Assembly (NCBI RefSeq): GCF_900230285.1
Contig: NZ_OCNK01000002.1
Location: 248,001 to 312,000 of the forward strand
Direction of reading: 5' to 3'
From: Blastococcus haudaquaticus
GTDB taxonomy: Bacteria; Actinomycetota; Actinomycetes; Mycobacteriales; Geodermatophilaceae
DNA length: 64,000 bases
Of this stretch, positions 41,894-61,155 are shown in pieces (position 1 is the first letter of the stretch; every line of letters starts with the position of its first letter). Made by a program: the position numbers and the translations under genes. The notes beneath the pieces were generated by a model. The model saw nothing but the letters and a program-made list of their open reading frames with translations. It did no database searches and had not been told where the DNA came from.

Positions 41894-43519
41894 TCAGTGC
41901 CCGCGGAAGGCCTCCTCGAGCCACCACGAGGGCTGCTCCCGGGTCACCTTCGCGTCCACGAGCAGCGGCGCCGTCCGGGGTCCGGCCAGCCACTGCCGCA
42001 CGCCGTCGAGGTCCGCGACGCTGCGCACGGTGACCGCGGCGAAGCCGTGGCCCCGGGCGATCGCGGCGAAGTCGGTCTCCGGGAAGCGGACGGTGTCCAG
42101 CGGGTGCCCGTCCGGCCCGAAGTGGTGCACCTCCGCGCCGTACGCGGCGTCGTCGTACACGACGACCACCATCGGGAGGCCGAGCCGAACCACGGTCTCG
42201 AGCTCCGAGGCGCCCATGAGCGCTCCCCCGTCGCCGAGGGCCGCGACGGGCAGCCGGCCGGGCCTGGCGACGGCGGCACCGATCGCGGTCGCCAGCCCCA
42301 GCCCGACGGACTGGAACGCCTGCGTGAAGCAGAACCCGAACTCGTCGGGCACGTCCAGGAACATGCTCGGGTAGCCCATGAAGTTGCCGGAGTCGACGGC
42401 GACCAGGCGCTCGGCCGGCAGCAGGTCGTCCAGCGCGATCGTGAGCGCCCGCGGGTCGACCAGCCCCGCTCCCCCGCCGTCGTCGAACGGCTCGTCCCGC
42501 CAGCGCCCGCGCGTCGTGAGGGCGGCCCGCACCTCGTCCGTCCGGTAGCCGGGCGCCTGCTCACCGACGAGGCCGAGGACGGTCTCGGCGACGGACCGGA
42601 CGTCGCCGACCACCCCGAGGTCCACCGGGCGCTGGGCGCCGATCGCTCCGGGGTCGTCGTCCACCTGCACCACCACGGCGTCGTCGGCGATCAGCCGGCC
42701 GTGCCGCATCGTCCACATGTTGAGCGCGCACCCCCAGCCCACGACCAGGTCGGCGCCGGTGATCAGCTCCGCGGCCAGCGGGGTGGCGAAGCCGCCCGAG
42801 ACGTCGAGGTCCCAGGGGCTGCCGCGGAACAACCCCTTGGCGACCGCGGACGTCGCCAGCAGCGCGCCGCACCGGTCGGCGAGCGCCTCGAGCGCAGCTC
42901 GGGAGCCGCGGGCACCGCGCCCGGCCACGAACACCGGCCGCCGGGCCGCGCTGAGGGCGTCCGCCAGCCGGTCGAGGTGCTCCGGAGGCACCGCGACCGA
43001 CGGCACGACCGGCACCGGCTCCCCCGCGTCGGCGGGCAGCTGCTGCACGTCCAGGGGCAGGTTGAGGACGACGACCCGCCGGTGGTCCCGGGCGGTGACC
43101 ACCGCGGCCGCGGCGACGGCCGCCGCGTCCTCCGCCGTGTCCACCCGCATCGACATCGCCCCGACGGCCGAGGCCAGCGCCGTCTGGTCGACGAAGAAGT
43201 TGGACCGGCGCGAGGTCGCCTCCGCGGTGACGACCACCAGCGGCGTCCGGCTCTTCGCCGCCTCGGTGATCCCGGTCAGCGCGTTGGTCAGGCCGCAGCC
43301 CTGGTGGACGCTGAGCGCGGCCACCCGTGCGGACATGCGGGCATAGGCATCGGCCATCGTGGCCGCTCCGCCCTCGTGCCGGGCCGCCACGTACCGGGCG
43401 CCCCCGGCGACCATGGCGTTGGTCACCGCGAAGTTGCCCGATCCCACCACCCCGAAGACGGCGTCGACGCCGGACCGGACGAGCACCTCGCCGACCACCT
43501 CGGCGACCGTCCGGCTCAT
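41894..43519 (-). CDS. TPP-dependent 2-oxoacid decarboxylase-like enzyme
   Basis: 541-residue ThDP enzyme of the acetolactate synthase/benzoylformate decarboxylase superfamily. Glu49 (ARHEGGAATMADAYAR) is the ThDP-activating Glu. VVGSGNF puts a Ser at position 27 and LSVHQGCGLTNAL a His at 72, matching Ser26 and His70 of benzoylformate decarboxylase; acetolactate synthases lack that His. The ThDP-Mg motif is GDGGALMGASELET...YDDAAYG, with Asp-Asp where most have Asn-Asn. ATG at 43519 overlaps the cyclase stop (ATGA), so the two work together. Decarboxylation of an aryl or alkyl 2-oxoacid is inferred. Confidence 0.85.
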   Translation of the reverse strand: MSRTVAEVVGEVLVRSGVDAVFGVVGSGNFAVTNAMVAGGARYVAARHEGGAATMADAYARMSARVAALSVHQGCGLTNALTGITEAAKSRTPLVVVTAEATSRRSNFFVDQTALASAVGAMSMRVDTAEDAAAVAAAAVVTARDHRRVVVLNLPLDVQQLPADAGEPVPVVPSVAVPPEHLDRLADALSAARRPVFVAGRGARGSRAALEALADRCGALLATSAVAKGLFRGSPWDLDVSGGFATPLAAELITGADLVVGWGCALNMWTMRHGRLIADDAVVVQVDDDPGAIGAQRPVDLGVVGDVRSVAETVLGLVGEQAPGYRTDEVRAALTTRGRWRDEPFDDGGGAGLVDPRALTIALDDLLPAERLVAVDSGNFMGYPSMFLDVPDEFGFCFTQAFQSVGLGLATAIGAAVARPGRLPVAALGDGGALMGASELETVVRLGLPMVVVVYDDAAYGAEVHHFGPDGHPLDTVRFPETDFAAIARGHGFAAVTVRSVADLDGVRQWLAGPRTAPLLVDAKVTREQPSWWLEEAFRGH

Positions 43520-44292
43520 CCCCGTTCGACCAGGGCCACTGCGCGCAGGGGCGAACCGGAACCCGACACGATGGGCAGCGGGGCGGCGACGACGAGCGCG
43601 CCGGTCGCGGGCAGCCGGTCGAGGTTCTGCAGCTGGGTCAGCCCGTACTTGCCGCTGCCCATCAACGCGGAGTGGCACGGGAACGGCGGGTCGAACGAGT
43701 GGGCGCCGCCGGCGTCGGTGCCCACGGTCTCCACCCCGAGACCGATCACCGGCGTCTCCTCGGCCAGCCAGCGGGCGCAGGCCGGCGAGAGCCCTGGCGT
43801 GTGCGGGCCGGTCTCGTCGGCGTTGAGGAACTGCTGCTGCGACGCCGACCGCGTGGCCCACCCGGTGCGGAACAGCAGCCATCCGCCGTCGGGCAGCGGG
43901 CCGTGCTCGGCCTCCCAGGCGCGGACGTGCTCGACCTCCAGCAGGAAGTCGGGGTCGGCGGCCGCCTCGGCGGAGAAGTCCAGGACGACGGCCGGCGCGA
44001 CGAACCGCTGCGCCGGCACCGACGCGACGTCGTCGCCGCCCTTCCCGGTGACCCAGTGGTTGGGGGCGTCGAAGTGCGTCCCGGTGTGCTCGCCGGTCCG
44101 GAAGTTGTTCCAGTACCAGGCCGGGCCGCGGTCGTCGTAGCGGCTGAGCTCCTCCAGCTGGAAGGAGGCCGTCTGCGCGAACTGCTCGGGCAGCGCGATC
44201 ACCGGGGTGTCCGACGACAGCGGGGCGGTCAGGTCCACCACCTCGATCGCTCCGGTGGACAGCGCCTCGGCGAAGCTGGAGAGCACGGACAT
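43516..44292 (-). CDS. Cyclase-family metal hydrolase (isatin hydrolase/kynurenine formamidase type)
   Basis: 258-residue Mn/Zn hydrolase with the full HxGTHxDxPxH motif, HTGTHFDAPNH (69-79). The family opens cyclic or formyl amides: kynurenine formamidase, isatin hydrolase. Length fits both. ATG at 44292. Overlapped with a benzoylformate decarboxylase-like TPP enzyme, which would accept an arylglyoxylate such as isatinate, the product of isatin hydrolase. That pairing supports the isatin-type reading but does not prove it. Confidence 0.86.
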   Translation of the reverse strand: MSVLSSFAEALSTGAIEVVDLTAPLSSDTPVIALPEQFAQTASFQLEELSRYDDRGPAWYWNNFRTGEHTGTHFDAPNHWVTGKGGDDVASVPAQRFVAPAVVLDFSAEAAADPDFLLEVEHVRAWEAEHGPLPDGGWLLFRTGWATRSASQQQFLNADETGPHTPGLSPACARWLAEETPVIGLGVETVGTDAGGAHSFDPPFPCHSALMGSGKYGLTQLQNLDRLPATGALVVAAPLPIVSGSGSPLRAVALVERG

Positions 44293-48119: not shown

Positions 48120-49175
48120 TCAGCCGGTCCGCACCCCGCGGTGCCGGCCCAGGTAGTGCGACAGTCCGACCGCGACCAGGAGGGCGGCCCCGTTGAAGAC
48201 CGGGCTGGCCCAGGCGCTGGCGCCGGAGAGGGTCAGCCCGCTCACGGCCACGGAGACGAACAGCACGCCGATGATCGTCCCCACGGCGTTGAAGAAGCCG
48301 GGCACGACCGCTGTGGCGCCGAGGAACGCGGCCGCCAGGGCCGGGAACAGCAGGCTGGTCCCGTTGTCGGCCGTGGCGCTGCCGGCCCGGGCCAGCTGCA
48401 GCACTCCCGTCACCCCGGCGAGGGCACCGGCGAGCACGAACGTCGTCCACACGGACCGCTCGACACGGATGCCGACCAGCCGGGCCGACCGGGGGTTCGA
48501 CCCGATCGCGTACAGGCTCCGGCCGAACGGCGTCTGGGCGAGCAGGTACCAGAGGGCGACGGTGGTGATCAGGACGACGAAGACGACCCGCGGCAGCCCG
48601 AGCCAGGTCGAGCCGCCGAAGCGCGGGAGCGCCGGGTCGATGCCGGCCAGGATCGTCTGGCCACCGGTGTACCACTGGATCAGGCCGCCCAGCAGGGTCG
48701 CCATGCCGAGGGTCGTGACGAAGCTGTTGAGCCCGAACCGGGTGACCAGCAACCCGTTGATCCCGCCGATCACGGCGCCGACACCCACGCCGACGGCGAC
48801 GGCGAGCCCGAGCGGCAGGTCGTGGAAGCTCATCAGCCCGGCCGTGAGGACGCTGGAGGTCGCGGCGATGGCCCCCAGCGAGAAGTCGAAGTACCCCGTG
48901 ACCAGCGGCAGGATGACCGCGAGGGCGAGGAGGGCGACCACGGACTGGTTGCCCAGCAGCACGCTGGCGTTCTGACTGGTGAAGAACGTCGCCGAGCTCT
49001 CCGGGTACACGGCGAAGAAGGTGATCACCGCCAGGAGGAGCGCCAGCAGGGCGTTGCGCTCGGCGAAGCCCTTCAGCCGCGACGACGGCGTCGGGGCGGC
49101 GACCGGGGAGGGTGCGGAGGCGTCCGAGCCGTTCCCGTCGGAGGTGTCGAGGTGCTCGGTGTTCGTCAGGGTCAT
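48120..49175 (-). CDS. Sugar-type ABC transporter permease (RbsC-like)
   Basis: 351-residue BPD_transp_2 permease with about 8-9 membrane helices: LPLVTGYFDFSLGAIAATSSVLTA and NGLLVTRFGLNSFVTTLGMATLLGGLIQWYTGGQ, then YAIGSNPRSARLVGIRVERS are family signatures. A hydrophilic N-terminal 35 residues (MTLTNTEHLDTSDGNGS...) precede the first helix. ATG at 49175 overlaps the ATPase stop (ATGA). Third gene of a three-gene importer. Confidence 0.9.
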   Translation of the reverse strand: MTLTNTEHLDTSDGNGSDASAPSPVAAPTPSSRLKGFAERNALLALLLAVITFFAVYPESSATFFTSQNASVLLGNQSVVALLALAVILPLVTGYFDFSLGAIAATSSVLTAGLMSFHDLPLGLAVAVGVGVGAVIGGINGLLVTRFGLNSFVTTLGMATLLGGLIQWYTGGQTILAGIDPALPRFGGSTWLGLPRVVFVVLITTVALWYLLAQTPFGRSLYAIGSNPRSARLVGIRVERSVWTTFVLAGALAGVTGVLQLARAGSATADNGTSLLFPALAAAFLGATAVVPGFFNAVGTIIGVLFVSVAVSGLTLSGASAWASPVFNGAALLVAVGLSHYLGRHRGVRTG

Positions 49176-50800
49176 CGTCGCTCTCCTGGGGCCGGCGCGG
49201 GGCCGGCGACGGGCTCGGTGCTCTGGGTGAGTGCGGTGAGGCGGTCGGCGGTGAGCTCCGGCCCGCTCAGCTCCGCCGCCACGCGTCCGTCGCGCAGGAC
49301 GAGCACCCGGTCGCAGAGGCCGCAGAGCTCGAGCTGGTCGGAGGAGGCGACGAGGACGGCGCAGCCGCGACCGGCGGTCTCCCGCACGATCCGGTAGATG
49401 TCGGCCCGGGACATGACGTCGACCCCCTGGGTCGGCTCGTCGAGGAGCAGCAACGCGGGCTCGCGACGCAGCCACCGGGCCAGGATCGCCTTCTGCTGGT
49501 TCCCTCCCGACAGGGCCGCGAACGGCGCCTCGGTGGAGGGGGCCTTGATGGTGTGCGACCGGAGCAACGCGGCGGCGTCCACCCGCTCCCGGCGAGCCGC
49601 CATCCCCCAGGGGCGCCAGTACCGGCGGACGACCGTGGCGGAGAGGTTGTCCCGGACCGTGAGGTCGGCGAACGCGGCCTCACCGCCGCGGTCCTCGGGC
49701 ACGTAGGCGACCCCGCCGGCGATCCGCCCCGCCACCGTGGCGGCCGTGCTCGCACCCGGCGGGCCCGCGGCGATCCGCACGCTGCCTGCGATGGGGGTGT
49801 GCTCGCCGAACACGGTCTTGAGCAGGGAGGTGCGGCCGGAGCCGACCAGCCCGGTGACGCCGACGATCTCGCCGCGCCGGACCTGGAGGTCGACCCCGCG
49901 CAGGGGTCCCCCGGACACGCCCGACACGTCCAGGACCACCTCGGGACCGTCCGTTCCAGCGGGCGTGCCGCTCGCGGCGGATGCGTCGCCGGTGGCAGCC
50001 GGCCCGGTGCCGGGAGGGTTCCCCGCGATCCCGGTCATGTGGGCCACCAGGTCCCGCTCGGTGGGCCGTGCGCCCACCAGGGATGCCACGGAGCGCCCGT
50101 CCCGGAAGACCGTGAAGTCGTCGGAGACCGAGAGCACCTCCGGCATCCGGTGACTGACCATGAGCACGGTCTGCCCGTGGTCGGCCCGCCGCCGCACGGC
50201 GTCGAGGAGGAGCTGCGACTCGTGCTGGGGCAGCGTGGCGGTGGGCTCGTCGAGCACCAGGACCAGGTGCCGGTCGTCCTCCTGGTCCTGCAGGGCCCGG
50301 GCGATCGCCACGAGGGTGCGCTGCGCCGGACGGAGAGCTGCCACGGGTGTCGCGGGCGACGCGTCGATCTCGTAGTCCGCGAGCAGTCCGGCGACCCGCC
50401 GGTGCAGCGCCGTCCAGGAGACCCGGCCGGTCGCCCCGCGGGGGTACCCGGCGTCGAGTGCGACGTTCTCCGCGATCGAGAGCTCGGGGAACAGGCCGAG
50501 GTCCTGGTGGACGAAGCGCAGGCCGGCGGCGCGCCCGGCGCGGGCGTCGTACTCCGCGGCCGACCACGACGAGCCGGCCATCTCGATCCGACCCGCATCG
50601 GCGCGGTGGACCCCGGCCAGGACTTTGATCGTCGTGGACTTGCCGCACCCGTTGCCGCCGACCAGGGCGTGCACCGTGCCCTGCCGCAGCGTCAGGTCGG
50701 CAGCGTCGAGGGCGAGCGTCGCGCCGAACCGCTTGGTCATCCCCGCGATCCGCAGGACGACGTCCGTCGCGGAGGCCGGAAGGGATTCCGTGCTCGTCAT
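49172..50800 (-). CDS. Sugar-type ABC transporter ATPase, double domain (RbsA-like)
   Basis: 542 residues with two ABC ATPase domains. Domain 1 (20-255): Walker A GGNGCGKST, a changed signature ALRPAQRTLVAIA, Walker B LVLDEPTATL. Domain 2 (300-530): GLVGSGRTSLLK, signature LSGGNQQKAILARWL, Walker B LLLDEPTQGVDV. A Gly/Ala/Thr linker (PPGTGPAATGDASAASGTPAGTD, about 255-280) joins them. ATG at 50800. Made with the permease by stop/start overlap. Confidence 0.9.
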   Translation of the reverse strand: MTSTESLPASATDVVLRIAGMTKRFGATLALDAADLTLRQGTVHALVGGNGCGKSTTIKVLAGVHRADAGRIEMAGSSWSAAEYDARAGRAAGLRFVHQDLGLFPELSIAENVALDAGYPRGATGRVSWTALHRRVAGLLADYEIDASPATPVAALRPAQRTLVAIARALQDQEDDRHLVLVLDEPTATLPQHESQLLLDAVRRRADHGQTVLMVSHRMPEVLSVSDDFTVFRDGRSVASLVGARPTERDLVAHMTGIAGNPPGTGPAATGDASAASGTPAGTDGPEVVLDVSGVSGGPLRGVDLQVRRGEIVGVTGLVGSGRTSLLKTVFGEHTPIAGSVRIAAGPPGASTAATVAGRIAGGVAYVPEDRGGEAAFADLTVRDNLSATVVRRYWRPWGMAARRERVDAAALLRSHTIKAPSTEAPFAALSGGNQQKAILARWLRREPALLLLDEPTQGVDVMSRADIYRIVRETAGRGCAVLVASSDQLELCGLCDRVLVLRDGRVAAELSGPELTADRLTALTQSTEPVAGPAPAPGERR

Positions 50801-50862
50801 GGTGGTCCTTTCGCCGGTGGCCGCCCCCGAAGGAGCGGCCACCGGGATGGCGGAGCGGGCGG

Positions 50863-52026
50863 TCAGACGCCCCAGGCCTCCTGGTAGGCGGCCCGGAAGT
50901 CGACCGGCTCGAAGTCCTGCCCCTGCGGCGGCAGGCCGTTCTCCGCGTCGACGACCTGGAAGCCGTCACCCTGGACCAGGGGCTCCTCGCCGTTGAGCAC
51001 CCGGATCGCGGTGTCCACCGATCCCCAGCCGCCCCACTGGGTGGGGTAGCCGACGATGGCGTCCTGGCCGCCGTCGGAGCGGATCAGCTCCATGTTGGCG
51101 ACGTTGCCCAGGCCGCTGATGACGTTCAGGTCGGCCGAGCGGCCGGAGGAGACGACGGCCTGCGCCAGACCGGCCGGCATCCACCCGCCGAGCGGCACGA
51201 AGACCGAGTCGGTGTCGGGTGCCTGCAGCAGGGCGGTCGAGAACTTCTGCGGCAGCGCTCCGGTCATGACGTCGTTGTTGGCGACCTCCAGCGTGCCGAC
51301 GATCTCGCAGTCGGCGCAGGTGGCGATCTCCTTCTCGAACCCGTCGGCCAGCCACGGGCCCCAGAGCGGGTCGGTGAAGACGAGGTGGAGGACCTTCGCC
51401 TGTCCGTCGGTCTTTCCGATGATCCAGTCCGCGGCGAGCTTGCCCTGCAGCTCGAAGCTCTCCTGGACGCTCATGTCCTCGAGCTGCAACCGCTCGCTGG
51501 CCCACAGCGGCTGACCACCGACGGCGTCGCAGTCGGCGCCACCGGCGCCCACGACGGTGCCCCCGGCGTCCTTGGCCTCCTGGAAGGGCTGCTGGATGCT
51601 GGCGCAGTCGATGCCCACCGGGACCACGACATCGGCGCCGGCGCTGACCGCCTGGCGCACGCAGTCACCCCAGCCGTTGGGGTTGAGCTTGCCGTCGCAC
51701 AGCCGCACGCTCCAGCCCACGGCCTCGGCCGCCTCCTGCACCGCGGCCGTCGGCGTGGCACAGCTCGGGATCTGCTCACCGCAGGAGATGGCCCACAGCT
51801 CGACATCCTCGGCCGGTGTCGTCGGGGTGGTCGGGGGCGTGCCCATCTGCCCCTCGTACGCGATCTGGAGCAGGTCCTGGGTGGCCGCCGACCCACCTCC
51901 GGCGGCGCCTGCCGTGCTGCCGGAACCGGCGGCGTCCTCGTCCGAGGAGCCGCACGCGGCCAGTCCCAGGGTGGCGACCAGGCTGAGGACGGCGGTCACG
52001 CCGAGCCGGCGCAAGGAGCGGGTCAT
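50863..52026 (-). CDS. ABC transporter substrate-binding lipoprotein
   Basis: 387-residue lipoprotein: signal peptide with lipobox LAAC (Cys25), then a Ser/Gly/Ala linker and a periplasmic-binding-protein fold of the sugar type (DVVVPVGIDCASIQQPFQEAKDAGGTVVG; GFEKEIATCADCEIVG). Several Cys pairs in the mature part suggest disulfides. ATG at 52026. The next-door catabolic row suggests the ligand is not a plain sugar; the candidate LysR site at 52059-52075 lies 32 bases upstream. Confidence 0.89.
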   Translation of the reverse strand: MTRSLRRLGVTAVLSLVATLGLAACGSSDEDAAGSGSTAGAAGGGSAATQDLLQIAYEGQMGTPPTTPTTPAEDVELWAISCGEQIPSCATPTAAVQEAAEAVGWSVRLCDGKLNPNGWGDCVRQAVSAGADVVVPVGIDCASIQQPFQEAKDAGGTVVGAGGADCDAVGGQPLWASERLQLEDMSVQESFELQGKLAADWIIGKTDGQAKVLHLVFTDPLWGPWLADGFEKEIATCADCEIVGTLEVANNDVMTGALPQKFSTALLQAPDTDSVFVPLGGWMPAGLAQAVVSSGRSADLNVISGLGNVANMELIRSDGGQDAIVGYPTQWGGWGSVDTAIRVLNGEEPLVQGDGFQVVDAENGLPPQGQDFEPVDFRAAYQEAWGV

Positions 52027-52058
52027 GAAGATCCCTTCGACGCTTGGTGCCCGACATC

Positions 52059-52075
52059 GGTGACGGGCATCACTG
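52059..52075 (-). promoter_or_regulatory. Candidate LysR operator upstream of the ABC importer
   Basis: Reads CAGTGATGCCcGTCAcC on the minus strand, 32 bases before the substrate-binding protein gene that is transcribed in that direction. It differs from the site at 53092-53108 at only two of 17 positions and contains the inverted pair GTGA...TCAC. Same orientation relative to the gene it precedes in both places. Confidence 0.6.
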
Positions 52076-52112
52076 CCGCCGAAGTGTCAGGACCGGAGCG
52101 ACCGAGCGGAAA

Positions 52113-53072
52113 TCACTTCTTCTGCTGCGCGGTATCAGCGACGTCGATATCGACGTGGGGACCGCCCACTGCCAGCTGCGCGGCCCGGACGACGAGGTCG
52201 CGGAGGTAGACGTGCTCCGGGTCGTCGTCGTACACCGGGTGCCACCACATGGCCTCGATGAGCGGTCCCGCGTCGAAGGGGCACGGCAGCGCCCGGATGC
52301 CGATGTTGAGCGGCAGCAGGTCCACCAGCCGGCGCTGCAGCAGGGCGATGCGGTTGCTGCCGGCGATCAGCGCGGGCACCGTCAGGAAGCTCTCGACGAC
52401 GATCTGGACGTGCGGCTCGATGCCCAGCATGCGCATCTGGCGCGCGGCCGGCGTCGACGCCGTCGGCCCGTGGTAGGTGGCCACCCACGGAAGGGTCTCC
52501 AGGTCCTGGACCGTCAGTCCCACGTCCGCGACCGGGTTGTCGGCGGCCACCACGCAGACCCACTCGTCGCGGTACAGGTCCCGGCGGGAGAGGTCGGTCA
52601 GGAACCCGGGAGGCAGGAAGAGCAGATCGGCGGTGAGGAGCGCCTGCTCCGCACGGTCCACCACGGCCGGCGAGTGCGTCGACAACCGCAGGCGGGTGTT
52701 CGGCGCCTCCTCGGCCAGCAACTCGGCGACGGTGTCGCCGAGGACCGCCACGACGTAGTCGCTCACCAGCAGCGAGAACTCGCGCGTGGAGGAGGCCGGG
52801 TCGAACTCCGGCTGCGCCGTGAAGACGCGCTCGACACCGCTGAGCGCGATCCGGGCGAGCTCCCGGAGCTGCACCGCCAGCGGCGTGAGGCGGTAGTCGT
52901 TGCCGACCCGGGTGAGCAGCTCGTCGTCGAAGTGCCGGCGCAGCCGGGCGAGCGACGCGGACAGCGCGGGCTGGCTGAGTCCCATCTGCGCGGCGGCCCG
53001 GGTCACGCTGCGCTGCTGGAGCAGGGCGTCGAGCGACACGAGCAGGTTGAGATCCAGGCTCGCGAGGTTCAC
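52113..53072 (-). CDS. LysR-family regulator of the catabolic island (NodD-like)
   Basis: 319-residue LysR with an N-terminal helix-turn-helix (SLDLNLLVSLDALLQQRSVTRAAAQMGLSQPALSASLARLRRHF) typical of the NodD/AphT group that senses aromatic compounds, and an effector domain ending WHPVYDDDPEHVYLRDLV. GTG at 53072. It is divergent from the cyclase gene across 85 bases that hold a palindromic candidate operator, and 86 bases upstream of the importer genes; an identical word lies before both. Confidence 0.91.
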   Translation of the reverse strand: MNLASLDLNLLVSLDALLQQRSVTRAAAQMGLSQPALSASLARLRRHFDDELLTRVGNDYRLTPLAVQLRELARIALSGVERVFTAQPEFDPASSTREFSLLVSDYVVAVLGDTVAELLAEEAPNTRLRLSTHSPAVVDRAEQALLTADLLFLPPGFLTDLSRRDLYRDEWVCVVAADNPVADVGLTVQDLETLPWVATYHGPTASTPAARQMRMLGIEPHVQIVVESFLTVPALIAGSNRIALLQRRLVDLLPLNIGIRALPCPFDAGPLIEAMWWHPVYDDDPEHVYLRDLVVRAAQLAVGGPHVDIDVADTAQQKK

Positions 53073-53091
53073 GCCTGCACGGTATCGACGT

Positions 53092-53108
53092 CAGTGATGC
53101 CAGTCATC
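53092..53108 (+). promoter_or_regulatory. Candidate LysR operator in the lysR/cyclase divergent gap
   Basis: CAGTGATGCCaGTCAtC; inside it TGATGccagtCATCA is a perfect inverted repeat with a 5-base spacer (53095-53109). It lies 49 bases before the cyclase GTG and 19 bases beyond the LysR start, where a LysR regulator would bind to repress itself and activate the row. The same word, in the same relative orientation, lies upstream of the importer. Confidence 0.65.
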
Positions 53109-53157
53109 AGACATCTGGTCTTCCCTCACCCCTGTGGGCTGCACCACTGTCGGGACC

Positions 53158-54180
53158 GTGCACCAGTCTCCCGACGACTCCGCCGCTGACCCCGCTGCCG
53201 CGCTCGACCGCACCGACCCCGAGAGCGCCATCGCGGCCGCCGCGAAGCGCTGCTCGAACTGGGGCCGCTGGGGTGCCGACGACGTCATCGGCACCATGAA
53301 CTTCCTCGACGACGCCAAGCGGGTCGAGGGTGCGGCCCTGGTGCGGCGGGGCGCGAGCTTCTCGCTGTCGCAGTCCTTCGACACCGACGGCCCGCAGAAG
53401 GGCTGGCGCCGCCGGACCAACCCCGTGCACACGATGACCGACACCGGCACCGACGCCGAGCGCGGGAACCAGGGCTTCCCGCACGGCATCGGGGGCGCCG
53501 ACGACGTCATCGCCATGCCCCTGCAGTGCTCGACCCAGTGGGACGGCCTCGGCCACATCTTCGACCACGGCTTCGCCTGGAACGGCCGCCGGGCCGGCGA
53601 CGTCGTCACCAGCGAGGGCGACCTGGTCACCGGCATCGAGAACGTCGCCTCGCTGATCGCCGGCCGCGGCGTGCTGCTCGACGTCGGGCGGGTCCTGGGC
53701 ACCGACGGCGAACTGCCCGACGGCTTCGCCATCACCCAGCAGCACCTCGAGGCGACGATCGCCGCGCAGGGCGAGTCGTCCCGCGTCGGGCGCGGCGACC
53801 TCGTGGTCGTCCGGACCGGTCGGCTCACCCGTGCCCGCCGCGACATCGCCGAGGGGCGCGGCTGGGGTGACTACGCCGGCGGCGCCGCCCCCGGCCTGTC
53901 CTTCACCACCGCCGACTGGCTGCACGGCACCGAGATCGCCGGGATCGCCACCGACACCTGGGGCTTCGAGGTGCGGCCCAACGAGTTCGACGTGGCCTTC
54001 CAGCCCCTGCACCAGGTCGCCATCCCCAACATCGGCCTGTCCATCGGCGAGATGTGGGACCTCGACGCCCTGGCCGCCGACTGCGCGCAGGACGGGCGCT
54101 ACGACTTCTGGCTCACCGCCGCCCCCCTGCCCGTGACCGGCGCCGTCGGCTCCCCGGTCAACCCGATCGCCGTCAAGTAG
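53158..54180 (+). CDS. Cyclase-family hydrolase, long form
   Basis: 340 residues, longer than kynurenine formamidase. The metal motif is changed from HxGTHxD to TQWDGLGHIFD (126-136), which occurs in a long-cyclase subgroup. Further marks are RRTNPVHTM, FPHGIGGADDVIAMP and SIGEMWDLDALA. GTG at 53158; the GTG at 53134 would overlap the operator. First gene of the catabolic row, 20 bases before the monooxygenase. Opening of a cyclic amide or lactone is inferred. Confidence 0.84.
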   Translation: MHQSPDDSAADPAAALDRTDPESAIAAAAKRCSNWGRWGADDVIGTMNFLDDAKRVEGAALVRRGASFSLSQSFDTDGPQKGWRRRTNPVHTMTDTGTDAERGNQGFPHGIGGADDVIAMPLQCSTQWDGLGHIFDHGFAWNGRRAGDVVTSEGDLVTGIENVASLIAGRGVLLDVGRVLGTDGELPDGFAITQQHLEATIAAQGESSRVGRGDLVVVRTGRLTRARRDIAEGRGWGDYAGGAAPGLSFTTADWLHGTEIAGIATDTWGFEVRPNEFDVAFQPLHQVAIPNIGLSIGEMWDLDALAADCAQDGRYDFWLTAAPLPVTGAVGSPVNPIAVK

Positions 54181-54199
54181 CGGACGAAGGAGTCCCCCC

Positions 54200-55330
54200 G
54201 TGCCCGCAGTCAGCAGCACGCTCGTCGTCGGCAGTGGTCTGGCCGGCGCCGCCACCGCCATCCACCTGGCCTCGGCCGGCGTCGCCGTCGACCTGGTCGA
54301 GATCAAGCCGGACCTGGCCACCCTCGGCTCCGGCATCACCCTGCAGGGCAACGCGCTGCGCGAGCTCCGGTCGCTCGGGGTGTGGGACCAGGTGCAGGCG
54401 GCCGGCTACGCCTTCGACGTCACCGGCATCCGCGCTCCCGACCCGAACGGCACGGTCGTGGCGGAGATCCCGGACGCCAAGACCGGCGGACCGGACCTTC
54501 CCGCCGCCATGGGCATGCCCCGGCCCGAGCTGGCCCGCATCCTGGCCGACCGCGCGACGGAGGTGGGTGTCAAGGTCCGCTTCGGGACGACGTTCATCGA
54601 TCTGACCCAGGACGCGGACGGCGTCGACGTCACCTTCTCCGACGGCTCCGCCGGCCGGTACGACGTGGTCGTGGGCGCCGACGGCGTCCGGTCGTACACG
54701 CGCCGGGCGCTGGGCGTGAACCTGGAGACGAGATCGGTCGGCATGGGCATATGGCGCGCCTTCGGGCCGCGCCCCGCCAGCGTGACGCGGACCGACCTCT
54801 ACTACGGCGGACCGTCCTACATCGCCGGCTACTGCCCCACCGGCGAGAACTCGCTCTACGCCTACATCGTCGAGGACGCCCAGGACCGCAGCGCCCTCAC
54901 TCCCGACGAGCAGCTGGCCACCATGAAGCAGCTGTCGCAGGCCTACCACGGCCCGTGGGACGAGATCCGCGAGAGCCTGACCGACCCGACGCGGGTCAAC
55001 TACACGTGGTTCGAGACCCACGTCCTCGACGAACCGTGGAACCGCGGCCGGGTCGTGCTCATCGGCGACGCCGCGCACACCTGCCCGCCGACCATCGCCC
55101 AGGGCGGCGCCATGGCCCTGGAGGACGCCGTCGTCCTCGCCGAGCTCCTGGTCGAGCGGGACGCGCTCGACCAGGACCTGTGGGACGCCTTCATGGCGCG
55201 CCGCTACGAGCGCGCGAAGACGGTCGTCGATGCCTCCAACTCACTCGCCCAGTGGCAGCTCGACCACGTCCAGGGCGACATCCCGAGCCTCATGCGCTCC
55301 ATCGCCATGCTCACCAGCCAGCCGGCCTAA
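54200..55330 (+). CDS. FAD-dependent aromatic monooxygenase (group A)
   Basis: 376-residue flavoprotein monooxygenase of the p-hydroxybenzoate hydroxylase type. N-terminal VVGSGLAGAATAIHLASAG binds FAD; VVGADGVRSYTRR (the DG motif) and VVLIGDAAHTCPPTIAQGGAMALEDA (GD motif) are intact. It would hydroxylate an aromatic or N-heterocyclic ring with NAD(P)H and O2. GTG at 54200 after GAAGGAG. Makes a ring-activated product for the dioxygenase that follows. Confidence 0.9.
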   Translation: MPAVSSTLVVGSGLAGAATAIHLASAGVAVDLVEIKPDLATLGSGITLQGNALRELRSLGVWDQVQAAGYAFDVTGIRAPDPNGTVVAEIPDAKTGGPDLPAAMGMPRPELARILADRATEVGVKVRFGTTFIDLTQDADGVDVTFSDGSAGRYDVVVGADGVRSYTRRALGVNLETRSVGMGIWRAFGPRPASVTRTDLYYGGPSYIAGYCPTGENSLYAYIVEDAQDRSALTPDEQLATMKQLSQAYHGPWDEIRESLTDPTRVNYTWFETHVLDEPWNRGRVVLIGDAAHTCPPTIAQGGAMALEDAVVLAELLVERDALDQDLWDAFMARRYERAKTVVDASNSLAQWQLDHVQGDIPSLMRSIAMLTSQPA

Positions 55331-55348
55331 GGACACGAGGACCTTCCG

Positions 55349-56287
55349 ATGACCCAGCGCCTGATCACCCACCTGCGGCACGTCGACCTCGCCGTGCCCG
55401 ACTTCGCCACGCAGCTCGACTTCTACTCCGGGGTGTGGGGCCTGACGCCCGAGCACACCGACACCGGGCTGGCGTTCCTGGCCGCCGAGGGTTCGCCGGA
55501 GCAGTACATCGTGCGGCTGCGCCAGGCGACCGACAAGCGGATCGACCTGATCTCCTTCGGGGCGGCGAACGCCGCGGACGTCGACACCCTGGCCGCGCAG
55601 CTCGCCGCCGACGGCGTGCAGCTCGTCGGCGAGCCGAACACGCTGCAGACGCCCGGTGGCGGCTACGGCTTCCGGTTCTTCGACAACGAGGGCCGCACGA
55701 TCGAGATCAGCTCCGACGTCGAGGTGCGGCAGCACCGCGCGATCGAGGAGGGCGAGTCCATCCCGGTGCGGCTGTCGCACGTCGTCCTCAACTCCACCGA
55801 CCCCGAGGGCACGGTCGCGTTCTACGACAAGCACCTCGGCTTCGCGCTGTCGGACACGCTCATGCACCCGCGCATGGGCAACATGATGTGGTTCCTGCGC
55901 ACGAACGCCTGGCACCACAGCATGGCGATCGCGCGTGGGCCGCACGCCTCGCTGCACCACGCCTCGTTCGAGATGCGGGGCATCGACGAGTACATGCGCG
56001 GCACCGGCCGCCTGCTGCGCGCGGGCGTCGAGAAGGTCTGGGGCCCCGGGCGGCACCTCGCGGGCAACAACACGTTCAGCTACTTCCTGGACCCCCACGG
56101 CAACACCGTCGAGTACACGACGGAGCTGGAGACCCTCGACGAGGACACCTGGCACCCGCACCTGTACGACATCAGCAACCCCGAGGTCAGCGACCAGTGG
56201 GGCACGGCGAACGCGATGAACGAGTTCGTCGCCCAGAAGTCGTTCAACGACCCCGACAAGGGTCTCTTCGTCGCTCCCCCCGTCTGA
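55349..56287 (+). CDS. Two-domain VOC extradiol-type dioxygenase
   Basis: 312 residues with two vicinal oxygen chelate domains. The N-domain starts HLRHVDLAVPDFATQLDFY; the C-domain has SHVVLNSTDPEGTVAFYDKHLGF (His), ASLHHASFEM (His) and NTVEYTTELE (Glu), the metal-binding 2-His-1-Glu set of type I extradiol dioxygenases. It would cut a dihydroxylated ring. ATG at 55349 follows AGGACACGAGGACC. Its stop overlaps the FAH gene by one base (TGATG). Confidence 0.89.
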   Translation: MTQRLITHLRHVDLAVPDFATQLDFYSGVWGLTPEHTDTGLAFLAAEGSPEQYIVRLRQATDKRIDLISFGAANAADVDTLAAQLAADGVQLVGEPNTLQTPGGGYGFRFFDNEGRTIEISSDVEVRQHRAIEEGESIPVRLSHVVLNSTDPEGTVAFYDKHLGFALSDTLMHPRMGNMMWFLRTNAWHHSMAIARGPHASLHHASFEMRGIDEYMRGTGRLLRAGVEKVWGPGRHLAGNNTFSYFLDPHGNTVEYTTELETLDEDTWHPHLYDISNPEVSDQWGTANAMNEFVAQKSFNDPDKGLFVAPPV

Positions 56288-57246
56288 TGCGCTTCGCGAC
56301 CTGGGAGTCCTCCGGCGAGGTCCACGCCGGAGTGGTCTCCGATGACGGCCTCCACGAACTCCCCGCGCGGACGACGGTGCTCGACCTCGTCCGTGCGGGG
56401 CTCCCAGCCGCGCTCGAGGCCGGTGCCGCCGCGATGGAGGGGCCGGCCATCCCGGTCGCGTCCGTGCGCCTGCTGCCCCCGCTCCAGGCCCCGACCGTCC
56501 GCGACTTCGTCGCCTTCGAGGAGCACGTCGAGGGGATGGTGGCGCCGAGCGGTGACGGCGTGCCCCCGGAGTGGTACCAGGCGCCCACGTTCTACTTCAC
56601 CAACCCGTACGCACTGGTCGGGGCGCACGACGACGTCCGGGTGCCCCCGGGTTCGCAGCGCTTCGACTTCGAGCTCGAGGTCGCCGTGGTGGTGGGCCGC
56701 GACGGCGCGTCGCTGAGCCCGGAGCAGGCCCGCGAGCACGTCTTCGGGTACACGATCCTCAACGACTGGTCGGCCCGCGACCTGCAGTTCCGCGAGATGG
56801 CGGTCCGGCTCGGTCCGGCGAAGGGCAAGGACTCCGCGACGACCCTCGGCCCCTGGCTGGTCACCGCCGACGAGCTGGAGCCCTACCGCGACGACGACGG
56901 CTTCCTCGCCCTGGACATGCGGGTGTCCGTGAACGGCGTCCAGATCGGCCAGGACCTGCTGTCGAACATGGGCTGGCCGTTCGAGGAGCTCATCTCCTAC
57001 GCGTCGCGGGGCACCGAGGTGCGCGCCGGCGACGTCCTCGGCTCCGGGACCTGCGGCAACGGCGGCTGCCTCGGCGAGCTCTGGGGCACCCGGGGAGACG
57101 ACGCTCCCCCGCCGCTGCAGATCGGCGACGTCGTCGAGATGACGGTCGAGGGCCTCGGCACCATCCGCAACCGCGTCGTAGAGGGCCTGCAGCTGCCTCC
57201 GGTGGCACCGGCGCGGCCGCGACCGCGGGTGCGCACGCGCTCGTGA
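56287..57246 (+). CDS. Fumarylacetoacetate hydrolase-family protein
   Basis: 319-residue FAH-fold hydrolase or decarboxylase. The metal triad is seen as FDFELEVAVVVGRD (Glu, Glu) and NDWSARDLQ (Asp); KGKDSATTLGPWLVT and GSGTCGNGGCLGELW are the other signatures. In meta-cleavage pathways members hydrolyse or decarboxylate the ring-opened dienoic acid. ATG at 56287 is fixed by the one-base overlap with the VOC gene; the stop overlaps the SDR gene (GTGA). Confidence 0.9.
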   Translation: MRFATWESSGEVHAGVVSDDGLHELPARTTVLDLVRAGLPAALEAGAAAMEGPAIPVASVRLLPPLQAPTVRDFVAFEEHVEGMVAPSGDGVPPEWYQAPTFYFTNPYALVGAHDDVRVPPGSQRFDFELEVAVVVGRDGASLSPEQAREHVFGYTILNDWSARDLQFREMAVRLGPAKGKDSATTLGPWLVTADELEPYRDDDGFLALDMRVSVNGVQIGQDLLSNMGWPFEELISYASRGTEVRAGDVLGSGTCGNGGCLGELWGTRGDDAPPPLQIGDVVEMTVEGLGTIRNRVVEGLQLPPVAPARPRPRVRTRS

Positions 57247-58004
57247 GGGCCGCGGGGATGGTCGGGGGGCGGGTGGCGGGCAAGGCGATCGTCGTCACCG
57301 GCGCGGGCCAGGGCCAGGGGGCCGCCGAGGCGCGGCTGCTCGCGGCCGAGGGCGCGACGGTGGTCGGCTGCGACCTGACCCCGGAGCCCGCCGAGGAGCT
57401 GCCCGGGGTCGACTACCGGCAGCTCGACGTGACCGACGCCCGGGCCTGGAGCGCGCTCGCCGCGAGCCTGGACCGGGTCGACGGGCTCGTCGCCAACGCC
57501 GGTGTCACCTGGCGGGCGCGCCTCGCCGACCTCGACCCCGCCGACCTCGCGCGGGTGTCGGAGGTCAACGTGACCGGCCCCCTCCTGGGCATCCAGGCGC
57601 TTACGCCGCTGATGACCGACGGCGGGTCCGTGGTCGTCGTCGGCTCGGTCGCCGCGCTGACAGGGCACTTCCCGATCGCCTACACCGCCAGCAAGTGGGC
57701 GCTGCGCGGGCTGGCCAAGGCAGCGTGCCTCGAGCTCGGACCGCGCGGCATCCGGGTCAACACCGTGCACCCGGGCTACATCGAGACGCCGATGACCGCC
57801 TCGGCGGCACCGGCGTTCCGCGACGCGAACGTCGCCGAGACACCGCTCGGCCGCACCGGGACCGTCGACGAGGTGGCGCCACTGGTGCTCTTCCTCGTCA
57901 GCGACGAGTCCTCCTTCATCTCCGGCGCGGAGATCCCCGTCGACGGCGGCATGACCGCCCACGGCGGCGTGAAGTCGATCAGCGACGCCGTCCGCGCCTC
58001 CTAG
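57243..58004 (+). CDS. Short-chain dehydrogenase/reductase
   Basis: 253-residue classical SDR: VVTGAGQGQGAAEARLL (TGxGxGxG), ANAGVTW (NAG), GSVAALTGHFPIAYTASKWALRG (Ser, YxxxK), and PGYIETPM. GTG at 57243 overlaps the FAH stop; ATG at 57258 is an alternative. It probably oxidises or reduces an alcohol or ketone on a pathway intermediate, NAD(P)-dependent. Confidence 0.9.
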   Translation: MRAAGMVGGRVAGKAIVVTGAGQGQGAAEARLLAAEGATVVGCDLTPEPAEELPGVDYRQLDVTDARAWSALAASLDRVDGLVANAGVTWRARLADLDPADLARVSEVNVTGPLLGIQALTPLMTDGGSVVVVGSVAALTGHFPIAYTASKWALRGLAKAACLELGPRGIRVNTVHPGYIETPMTASAAPAFRDANVAETPLGRTGTVDEVAPLVLFLVSDESSFISGAEIPVDGGMTAHGGVKSISDAVRAS

Positions 58005-58037
58005 CCACCCGCGACTCCTGGCTACCCACGACTCCTG
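58004..58037 (+). repeat. 17-bp imperfect direct repeat after the SDR gene
   Basis: GCCACCCGCGACTCCTG (58004-58020) is followed at once by GCTACCCACGACTCCTG (58021-58037), two mismatches in 17. It fills most of the 55-base gap before the hydrolase gene; no stem is obvious. Confidence 0.6.
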
Positions 58038-58059
58038 AGAACCACCGAGAGGAACCACT

Positions 58060-59235
58060 GTGTTCGAGTACTTCCCCACTGCCCCCTACACCTGGAACCT
58101 CAGCGTCGTCGCGACCCTGAACTCCGGCGGCCTCATCGACGAGGTCGACCGCGCCTGCCGGCCCATCAAGGACGCCGCGAGCGCCGGCGAGGACGCGGGG
58201 ACGACGGACTTCCTGCGCGCCTGGACCGCCCTCACCGACCAGCTCGTCGGCCAGGCGGAGGACGCCGAGAAGGCCGGGCACATCCGCACCGCCGGCCAGC
58301 TGTACTTCCGCGCCAACAACTACCTCGCGCAGGCCGAGCGGATGCTCGCGCACTCCAGCCCCGACCGGGTGCCCACCTACCGGCGGATGCTGGAGATCGC
58401 GCAGAAGGCGTTCGACACGCACAGCCCGCGGGTCTCGCGGGTGGAGGTCCCCTACGAGGGGACGACGCTGCCGGCCTACTTCAGCCAGGCGCCGGCCACG
58501 GACGACGGTCCCGCCCCGGTCATCGTGCTGGTCAACGGCCTGGACTCCACCAAGGAGCACATGTACGCCTCGAACCACTGGGAGGAGCTGGCCGCCCGCG
58601 GCATCTCGTGCCTGATGCTCGACCAGCCCGGCACCGGTGAGGCCATCCGGCTGCAGGGCCTCACCGCGCGGATCGACACCGAGGTCTGGGGCGCGGCCGC
58701 CGTCGACTACCTGGAGAGCCGGGACGACGTCGACAGCACCCGGATCGGCATCGTCGGCTGGTCGCTCGGCGGCTACTACGCGCCCCGTGCGGCCGCGTTC
58801 GAGAAGCGGTTCGCGCTCTGCGTGGCCTGGGGCGCCAACCACAACTGGGGCGCGGTGCAGCGCCGCCGCAAGGAGCGGGAGGGCGAGCGGCCGGTTCCCC
58901 ACTACTGGTCGCACGTGCTGTGGGTGTGGGGGCAGGAGGGCAGCGAGCAGGACCTCGATGGCTTCCTGGCGTTCGCCGACGACGTCCACCTGGACGGTGT
59001 CGTCGAGAACATCACGGTGCCGTTCCTCATCGCCCATGGCGCGAACGACCGGCAGATCCCGGTCGACTACGCGCACCGCTCCTACGAGCAGGCCGTCAAC
59101 TCGCCGAAGCGGGAGCTGCGGATCTTCACGCCGGAGGAGGGCGCGACGGAGCACATCGGCCTGGATCACCTCCCCCACGTCAGTGTCTTCGTCGCCGACT
59201 GGGTGGCCGACACCTTCGCCGGGCTGAAGGACTGA
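58060..59235 (+). CDS. Alpha/beta hydrolase of the 2,6-dihydroxypseudooxynicotine hydrolase family
   Basis: 391 residues: a helical N-terminal domain (1-130) precedes an alpha/beta hydrolase domain. VLVNGLDSTKEHMY (oxyanion region), IVGWSLGGYYAPRAA (nucleophile Ser in GWSLGG), LIAHGANDRQIP (Asp) and LDHLPHVSVF (His) are present. Named members break a C-C bond in the nicotine pathway; the family also contains other C-C and C-N hydrolases. GTG at 58060 follows GAGAGGAACC. Sixth gene of the catabolic row. Confidence 0.84.
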   Translation: MFEYFPTAPYTWNLSVVATLNSGGLIDEVDRACRPIKDAASAGEDAGTTDFLRAWTALTDQLVGQAEDAEKAGHIRTAGQLYFRANNYLAQAERMLAHSSPDRVPTYRRMLEIAQKAFDTHSPRVSRVEVPYEGTTLPAYFSQAPATDDGPAPVIVLVNGLDSTKEHMYASNHWEELAARGISCLMLDQPGTGEAIRLQGLTARIDTEVWGAAAVDYLESRDDVDSTRIGIVGWSLGGYYAPRAAAFEKRFALCVAWGANHNWGAVQRRRKEREGERPVPHYWSHVLWVWGQEGSEQDLDGFLAFADDVHLDGVVENITVPFLIAHGANDRQIPVDYAHRSYEQAVNSPKRELRIFTPEEGATEHIGLDHLPHVSVFVADWVADTFAGLKD

Positions 59236-59240
59236 CCGCC

Positions 59241-59627
59241 GTGCCCATGCTGTTCGTGACGCTGCCGGTGCGGGACCTGCCGGCCTCGCGGCGCTTCTAC
59301 GAGGCTCTCGGCTTCCGGATCAACGAGCACTCCTCCGACGAACACACCGCTGCGGTGGTCGTCGACGACAACATCGTGGTGACGCTGCTGTCCCGCGACT
59401 CGTTCCCGGTTCCCGTCGGCGATCCCGCGGCCGGTCCGACGGCGGTCCACTGCCTGACCGTCGAGCACCGACCGCAGGTCGACGAGCTGGTCGAAGCGGC
59501 GCTCGCCTCGGGCGGGACCGCGCGCCCCGCCACCGACGACGAGACGACCTACACCGGCAGCTTCGCCGACCCGGACGGCCACGTGTGGCAGATCCGGTGG
59601 ATGGACCAGCTGCACGTCGTCAACTGA
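59241..59627 (+). CDS. Small VOC/glyoxalase-like protein
   Basis: 128-residue single VOC domain: LFVTLPVRDLPASRRFYEALGF and FADPDGHVWQIRW (Glu position replaced by Gln in WQIRW). GTG at 59241, six bases after the hydrolase. Last gene of the row. It may be a lyase or a binding protein for a pathway product; some residues for metal binding are missing. Confidence 0.8.
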   Translation: MPMLFVTLPVRDLPASRRFYEALGFRINEHSSDEHTAAVVVDDNIVVTLLSRDSFPVPVGDPAAGPTAVHCLTVEHRPQVDELVEAALASGGTARPATDDETTYTGSFADPDGHVWQIRWMDQLHVVN

Positions 59628-59682: not shown

Positions 59683-61155
59683 TCAGAACGGTGGCGGGTC
59701 GTCCGGCGGTGGCGCGGGATCGGGTGGTGCCGGATCTGGTGGTCGCAGGCCCGGTGGCCGGGTGGTCCGGGTGATCCCGGACGGGCTGGTCACGTGCAAC
59801 GTGCCGTCGGCGTCCATGCGGAAGGTCCAGCCACGGGCGAAGGTCTTCAGCCGGTGGTGGGACCGGCAGAGGCAGCAGAGATTCGTACACGTCGTCCGGC
59901 CGCCCTGGGCGTGCGGCACCACGTGGTCGTGGTCCGCCCAGCCCGACCGCTGACCGCAGTTGGGCTGCCTGCACCGGCGGTCGCGCGTGCTCACGAACCG
60001 CTGCAGGGCCGTCGTGGGCTCGTAGCGATCGGTGGGCTCCGGGACGCCGAGCAGCGGGCACTCGCAGGCGTCGGCAGGGTGCTCGGGGCAGCCGGCCTCG
60101 GCCAGGCGGGCGAGCTCAGCAGCGGTGACGGTGGCCAGCAGCCGCCCGTCGGCGTCGGACATCGCGACGGTGAGCGACCCGCCGTCCGGCTTCTGCAGCC
60201 CGAGTGCACCGAGTCGGCGAAGCAGGTCGCGCAGGTGCGCGGCAGTGATCGGGAAGCCGTTGACCTCCCCGCCGCAGGTCGAGACGCCCTCGAGCCCCTC
60301 GAGGGTGGCGGAGACGGCCAGGTTGACCGTCACTCCCGGGAGGCCGGAATCGGCCGGCCGCAGGATCAGCATCGAGTGGATCGCCGACCGGATCTGCCCG
60401 ATCGGCCGGGGATCGCCGTCTGCCTTGGCCATCGCCGCCAGCTGGTCGATCACGTCGTAGCAGGCCGCCGCCTCGTCGGCCGGCAGGTCGGTCGCCAAGG
60501 CGACCATGCCGTCGCCGCAGTCGTAGCGCCGCACGTCTGCCGCGCGCTTCGCCTGCTCGTGGCGCTCTTCGATCGCGGTGGCGTCCAGCTCGGCCAGCCG
60601 AGCCAGCGCCTCGCGGCGAAGGGCGGCCAGGGACAGGTCGCGCGCGCCCGGCAGGACCGTCTCCTCGACCGCCCGCGCCAGATCGGGCGAGGTGTGCTGC
60701 AGCGCCTCGGCGAGCACACCCGCCCGGCGCTCGTCGATCTCGCCGTGGCGCAGCGCCTCGAAGGTCACCGGCAGGTTCTCCCGCCAGGTCCACGCCCGCC
60801 GGACACGGAAGGCAGCCGTGCCCCGGCCGACGTTCATCGCGTGGGCCACCTCGTCGGGGAAGAACTCGCTCACCCCGGGGAACTCCGGGTCGGTCCTCCG
60901 CCAGGTCCGGCTCCGGGTACCGGGACTGCCGGGCGGCGGATCTTCGACGTCGGGTCGCAGGTCGGCCAGCCGGAGGACGAGGTCCGCTTCCCTTGCCGTG
61001 TCCCGCGCCCGGTTGCGCTGGATCCGCTCCAGCTCAGCGGCGACGTCCTCGGCGTCGAGCCAGGACACGGGCAGCTGCGGCTGGGACTCCGGCTGGGTGA
61101 GGACCCAGTCGATCAGCACGCCCTCCACGACGGAGGTGCCGGACATCCGCTGCAT
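59683..61155 (-). CDS. DUF222/HNH endonuclease-signature protein
   Basis: 490 residues: DUF222 (about 30-370) and a C-terminal HNH motif, RRCRQPNCGQRSGWADHDHVVPHAQGG...TNLCCLCRSHHRLK, with the Cys pairs (CRQPNC, CCLC) and HH of the nuclease. A Pro/Asp-rich tail follows. This is the 13E12-repeat type of family, widely multiplied in actinobacterial genomes and often associated with mobile DNA, but no such DNA is near it here. ATG at 61155 or 61146. Confidence 0.9.
   Translation of the reverse strand: MQRMSGTSVVEGVLIDWVLTQPESQPQLPVSWLDAEDVAAELERIQRNRARDTAREADLVLRLADLRPDVEDPPPGSPGTRSRTWRRTDPEFPGVSEFFPDEVAHAMNVGRGTAAFRVRRAWTWRENLPVTFEALRHGEIDERRAGVLAEALQHTSPDLARAVEETVLPGARDLSLAALRREALARLAELDATAIEERHEQAKRAADVRRYDCGDGMVALATDLPADEAAACYDVIDQLAAMAKADGDPRPIGQIRSAIHSMLILRPADSGLPGVTVNLAVSATLEGLEGVSTCGGEVNGFPITAAHLRDLLRRLGALGLQKPDGGSLTVAMSDADGRLLATVTAAELARLAEAGCPEHPADACECPLLGVPEPTDRYEPTTALQRFVSTRDRRCRQPNCGQRSGWADHDHVVPHAQGGRTTCTNLCCLCRSHHRLKTFARGWTFRMDADGTLHVTSPSGITRTTRPPGLRPPDPAPPDPAPPPDDPPPF

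Follow-up and report, generated by a model that had tools for sequence, protein, structure and literature searches.

The nod box is the operator in rhizobial sensing of plant flavonoids. Its palindrome has been described as ATC-N9-GAT (PMC5596368), and two nod boxes of S. meliloti pSymA display exactly the register ATC-N9-GAT-N7-ATC. In Herbaspirillum seropedicae, naringenin is degraded via the fde operon with its NodD-like activator FdeR (PMC10799723, PMC11303751), and the isoflavone (ifc) cluster of Variovorax encodes an FAD monooxygenase, a glyoxalase-type enzyme, a DHPON-hydrolase-like alpha/beta hydrolase, and cupins (PMC11069340). LysR regulons, nod boxes, and proteobacterial NodD-like control of flavonoid catabolism are already known; a literature search of incomplete coverage retrieved nothing relevant on actinobacterial nod boxes or flavonoid clusters.

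The window analyzed here, a 64,000-nt stretch of the Blastococcus haudaquaticus genome, contains a gene for a LysR-type regulator, recognized by its N-terminal HTH_1 and its LysR_substrate domain, between an ABC importer operon and a row of catabolic genes (Table 1). As in the rhizobial NodD/nod box system, the regulator adjoins a divergent target, with ATC-N9-GAT-N7-ATC and a putative distal half. Unlike that system, the locus is actinobacterial, lies beside a catabolic row and has no nodABC downstream; its LysR is 32% identical to the homologue adjoining one of the pSymA nod boxes, and the distal half of its operator B is weaker. At the level of enzyme families only, the locus resembles fde, where LysR likewise adjoins genes for an FAD monooxygenase and a glyoxalase-fold ring-cleavage dioxygenase, and ifc, with which it shares the FAD monooxygenase, glyoxalase-type enzyme, and alpha/beta hydrolase. 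However, the FdeR region is described by T-N11-A boxes; cupins are not annotated in the window, and the window's cyclase, FAA hydrolase, and sugar-type ABC importer are not mentioned for ifc. The closest solved relative of the window LysR is DntR (1utb, 1uth; E about 1e-35), which has another target operon and comes from another phylum. The suggestion of the sequence-only reading that this LysR belongs to a group often sensing aromatic compounds is therefore reasonable.

Table 1 Features of the LysR locus (coordinates refer to the window)
Feature	Position	Strand	Remarks
ABC permease, ribose/AraH type	48120..49184 (approximate start)	-	
ABC ATPase	49172..50842	-	two ABC_tran domains
ABC importer substrate-binding lipoprotein	50863..52026	-	Peripla_BP_4
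Predicted 5′-leader hairpin TGCCCG...CGGGCA	52048..52069	-	TGCCGGTC-N4..6-GACCGGCA in relatives
Element A17, CAGTGATGCCCGTCACC, GTGA-N6-TCAC dyad	52059..52075	-	importer-side 17-mer
Putative importer promoter TTCCGC-N17-GACACT	52083..52111	-	from conserved columns; start expected at ~52077-52074
Operator A (proposed), ATCGACGTCGCTGATACCGCGCAGCAGAAGAAGTGATTTCCGC..., a degenerate box of nod-box type	52102..52148	-	over LysR 3′ end
LysR-type regulator, 319 aa	52113..53072	-	HTH_1 and LysR_substrate domains; DntR best solved relative
Putative LysR -10, TACCGT	53079..53084	-	6 nt before GTG start; touches first base of operator B
Operator B, LysR box of nod-box type, ATC-N9-GATG-N5-CATCA-N11-TTCC (ATCGACGTCAGTGATGCCAGTCATCAGACATCTGGTCTTCC...)	53084..53130	+	contains cyclase-side 17-mer
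Putative cyclase promoter TTCCCT-N18-CACTGT	53121..53150	+	7 nt before GTG 53158
Cyclase	53158..54180	+	PF04199
FAD-dependent monooxygenase	54200..55330	+	FAD_binding_3; PRK06847 above cut-off
Extradiol dioxygenase, glyoxalase-fold	55349..56287	+	
Fumarylacetoacetate hydrolase family protein	56287..57246	+	PF01557
Short-chain dehydrogenase	57243..58004	+	
FrsA-like alpha/beta hydrolase	58060..59235	+	candidate C-C bond hydrolase
Small VOC protein	59244..59627	+	

LysR orthologues are present in 51 of the 115 Geodermatophilaceae genomes, and the order LysR-cyclase-FAD monooxygenase-extradiol dioxygenase-FAA hydrolase-(SDR)-alpha/beta hydrolase is conserved in nearly all of them. On the LysR flank facing away from this row, an MFS permease is encoded in most relatives; the ABC importer is found in the window and at loci L039, L046, L050, L061, L077, and L078. 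The LysR proteins of L077 and L078 are distant (70-72% identity) from those of the other ABC-importer loci, so that the transporter swap is not confined to one close clade. Downstream of the ABC operon, the window contains a second cyclase-like gene (43516-44292), also present in L039 (95%), and a minus-strand ORF beside the end of the catabolic row (59683-61155) terminates, judged by eye, in an HNH-endonuclease-like motif.

Boxes flanking the LysR gene

The sequence-only reading had singled out a 17-mer preceding both the lipoprotein gene (CAGTGATGCCCGTCACC, 52075-52059, minus strand) and the cyclase gene (CAGTGATGCCAGTCATC, 53092-53108, plus strand), and proposed it as one LysR operator serving both. 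Coordinates, orientation (each copy on the strand of its downstream gene) and similarity (15 of 17 bases identical, two mismatches) were all reproduced, and the cyclase-side copy indeed includes the perfect inverted repeat TGATG-CCAGT-CATCA. The 17-mer is rare: in the 4.51-Mb genome (11 contigs), exact matches to the pattern are limited to the two known copies, with none at one mismatch and 23 at two; this count and a scan of the family genomes ruled out a frequent motif. The two-mismatch matches that keep the dyad (C2:823123 and C7:170149, the latter inside a transporter reading frame) do not lie at related genes. For two random gaps matched in size and dinucleotide composition, the probability of reaching 15/17 is about 0.001; in a window with dozens of gaps, one such pair could arise by luck. 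Since the chance statistic alone is weak, conservation in relatives was taken as the decider. Across 43 genomes, mean identity between the 17-mers of the two sides is 10.9/17, so the match in B. haudaquaticus is partly fortuitous.

In the LysR/cyclase gap, (T)ATC-N9-GAT(G)-N5-CATCA-N11-TTCC is kept at 52 of 54 Geodermatophilaceae loci, counted as at most two mismatches to TGATG-N5-CATCA-N11-TTCC in the aligned gaps. The fixed columns read AT(C) ... GAT(G)-N5-CATCA ... CTTCCC; the center of the repeat is free, and CAG is not retained. The exact 16-letter box has 41 matches in 34 of the 115 family genomes (reversed control, 0), 40 of which are located at the LysR-cyclase cluster, a LysR paralog, or a cyclase operon without adjoining intact LysR. 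The lone exception (G008:C1:954794; L130 8795), upstream of a possibly secreted protein of ~660 aa and with no cluster homologue nearby, was taken as chance. The B. haudaquaticus genome (G000) has two exact boxes, in the LysR/cyclase gap and at C4:104758 beside a LysR paralog. Association of the box with displaced operons was observed directly: in G084 it precedes the cyclase operon at 4.34 Mb, with LysR at 74 kb (~4 Mb apart), and in G055 it is intact before the cyclase although only N- and C-terminal remnants of LysR are left (L131 8440-8600). This retention argues that the box goes with the catabolic operon rather than being simply a piece of the LysR promoter. Collectively, the conservation pattern supports TGATG-N5-CATCA before the cyclase as the core of a LysR-type operator.

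The cyclase start was corrected from 53134 to, probably, GTG 53158, 7 nt after the -10-like CACTGT, so the cyclase mRNA is probably leaderless; that of LysR (TACCGT, 6 nt, GTG) apparently is too. Operator B makes contact, through its first ATC, with the putative LysR -10, which we count against our best explanation; autoregulation of LysR through this overlap with its promoter is likely. Scanning detected neither a terminator nor a consensus sigma-70 promoter, and the elements at the putative promoters are weak.

Both in the window and at the family loci, operator B conforms to the palindrome ATC-N9-GAT followed by ATC at N7. Outside Geodermatophilaceae, a box with at most one mismatch is present at 30 of 46 LysR loci, versus 1.2 in shuffles, including those of Lentzea, Saccharothrix, Amycolatopsis, Actinoplanes, Pseudonocardia, and Actinomadura; the Rhodococcus loci have no clear box within 130 nt before LysR. 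Scored across the full 47-bp nod box by matches to the 37 positions common to the two S. meliloti nod boxes, loci reach 28/37 in Nonomuraea and 25/37 in Streptomyces (p<0.0005), 19 of the 46 outside loci score at p<0.05, and the register of the best nod-box match agrees with the box at 25 of 30 outside loci. The window gaps attain a best score of 18/37 (p 0.03-0.05), both in nod-box register, with operator A at p about 0.05. Nod-box-like boxes also adjoin two LysR paralogs of the same genome, C4:103833-104744 (L089, 63%) and C5:334490-335386 (L092, 58%), flanking the former on both sides.

On the importer side, ATCGACGTCGCTGATACCGCGCAGCAGAAGAAGTGATTTCC (52148-52108, minus strand) has the register of operator B and an equal distance to TTCC, and overlaps the LysR stop codon. 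From this we infer an importer-side LysR operator at 52148-52102, operator A, which ends ~27 bp upstream of the 17-mer and thus falls outside the element proposed earlier. In the window, it has two mismatches to TGATG-N5-CATCA-N11-TTCC; the register is kept with at most three mismatches at 33 of 54 loci, and GATG-N5-CATCA is exact at five (L075-L077, L079, L080). Operator A also precedes the MFS gene in Lentzea and Amycolatopsis, where the distal half GAAGTGATTTCC is retained; this half is better kept in operator A than in operator B of the window. Overlap with LysR coding sequence could explain part of the conservation. In the window clade, the last ~15 LysR residues are encoded across operator A (region 52102-52160); more distant orthologues end at ~306 aa, with a clean palindrome at the operator-A position. 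In the Modestobacter loci L068 and L069, LysR and the MFS promoter are separated by ~300 additional bases, which include a second promoter-like stretch and, in L068, a perfect palindrome.

The element at the transporter promoter

The importer-side 17-mer, designated A17, begins 7 nt after the conserved GACACT and therefore probably marks the importer transcription start. Its exact pattern has 40 matches in 39 of the 115 family genomes, 37 at the transporter of the LysR cluster (reversed-pattern control, 0); the matches lacking a nearby cluster homologue (G004, G105, G110:C90) were taken as chance. Among 40 non-redundant sequences, C1, G3-G5, C10, and C14-C16 are invariant, and positions 7, 11, 12, and 17 vary (position 12 is G in 34 and A in 6). 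GTGA and TCAC are fixed, no base varies more than the T of 'GATG', and the right arm reads CACC, never CATC in the family, which points to a GTGA-N6-TCAC dyad rather than GATG-N5-CATC. The sequence-only reading had proposed to look for conservation in both gaps: the importer-side copy is almost invariant, whereas on the cyclase side the palindrome but not the 17-mer is kept.

A17 remains at the transporter promoter whether the gene served encodes the ABC importer, as in the window, or an unrelated MFS permease, as in most relatives. In G079, it lies at the MFS gene at 3.997 Mb, 530 kb away from LysR (4.527 Mb); in G113, box and A17 together precede the ABC operon, 2.3 kb from LysR. At L091/L092, an inverted A17 dyad precedes the paralog FAD-monooxygenase operon. 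Covariation links the two arms of the inverted repeat TGCCGGTC/GACCGGCA that follows A17 (both bases change in 5 of 8 pairs; 21 cells, 0 of 500 shuffles, slid controls far lower), arguing for a hairpin in the leader RNA. The leader matched no Rfam family up to E=1, and folding of the window leader was no more stable than that of shuffles (z -0.73). In the window and L039, a short upstream ORF opening at the GTG of the 17-mer would run into the lipoprotein start through an ATGA overlap; this ORF was rejected, as its phase is lost in L046, L050, L061, and L042.

These patterns bear on four alternatives. If LysR bound the 17-mer itself in both gaps, this would account for its 15/17 identity, its uniqueness in the genome, and the resemblance of the importer-side copy to half of a GATG-N5-CATC repeat. 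On the cyclase side, this claim is supported for TGATG-N5-CATCA, as the core of operator B; on the importer side, it is not supported. Fixed and free positions differ between the two elements, which are evidently under different evolutionary constraints, their identity decays among relatives, a box in operator-B register lies at fixed spacing upstream of A17, and A17 occupies about +1 to +17 of the predicted transcript. We reject the shared 17-mer operator on this conservation pattern and regard it as very unlikely. It is somewhat less improbable, though still doubtful, that LysR governs only itself and the catabolic row, leaving the transporter to A17. Degeneracy of operator A in the window genome and many relatives would fit, but not its exact form at five loci, the joint placement of box and A17 in G113, or the distal half kept in Lentzea and Amycolatopsis.

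The other two alternatives concern how A17 acts. Conservation as RNA only, with a leader hairpin setting stability or translation of the transporter mRNA and no second DNA-binding protein, is compatible with the covariation and with retention of the hairpin despite changes in loop length. However, the invariance of CAGTGA, which lies outside the stem, equals that of the stem itself, the dyad recurs inverted before the paralog operon, and neither the fold of the window leader nor the Rfam search lends support; we consider this reading unlikely, if less so than transporter control by A17 alone. More probably, A17 is bound by another dimeric regulator, for which a Crp-like protein is our leading guess. 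GTG-ATGCCG-GTCAC in A17 (GTGATGCCCGTCAC) agrees with the Crp consensus of S. coelicolor, GTG(N)6GNCAC (PMC10033298), a dyad shared with Streptomyces Crp and Corynebacterium GlxR sites, and the genome contains TGTGA-N6-TCACA sites (3 palindromic; control, 0). Unlike such sites, A17 has a fixed center and different flanks (A..C, not T..A); the high conservation of its N6 center (GCC) is unusual and goes beyond what Crp requires, and location at +1 would imply repression. Carbon-catabolite control of the transporter through a Crp/cAMP site is accordingly a tentative proposal, slightly ahead of the RNA-only reading.

A proposed regulatory scheme

The explanation that we favor, and hold to be probable, is that a NodD/DntR-type LysR uses nod-box-like operators flanking its own gene and activates both operons, with A17 as a separate layer. 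On either side of its gene, LysR would bind ATC-N9-GAT-N7-ATC together with the distal half close to the -35 region. Operator B would drive the cyclase-monooxygenase-extradiol dioxygenase-hydrolase row and, overlapping the LysR promoter, probably allow LysR to limit its own expression; operator A, over the LysR stop codon, would drive the transporter. Upon inducer binding, the bound LysR would rearrange and recruit RNA polymerase to the TTCC-N17/18-NACNNT promoters. A17 would provide the second control layer on the transporter, acting at the transcription start, followed by a selected 5′-leader hairpin. We infer binding, the direction of regulation, the promoters, and the protein at A17 from sequence patterns; activation of both operons is the most likely mode, and the earlier proposal that importer and catabolic row form one LysR regulon probably holds.

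Judged by family, the enzymes of the window fit the chemistry by which the fde and ifc clusters degrade the flavonoid A ring. Taken with a nod-box-type operator, this allows no more than a fair guess at a plant phenolic as both inducer and substrate; a NodD-type, possibly flavonoid-like inducer is suggested. The literature searched, of incomplete coverage, contained no operator in nod-box register that is conserved across Actinobacteria at a catabolic island and retained through an MFS/ABC exchange. A broader reading, which we offer only tentatively, is that the nod box is an old NodD/DntR-type operator for catabolism of plant-type phenolics across Actinobacteria, the symbiotic boxes being one specialized branch, and, jointly, that MFS and ABC transporters were swapped under a kept promoter module with a new dyad-hairpin element. 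The analysis predicts an exact operator for an aromatic-catabolic island that is itself conserved, extends nod-box architecture to a second phylum, and points to a regulatory module that was retained while a non-homologous transporter replaced the one it served.
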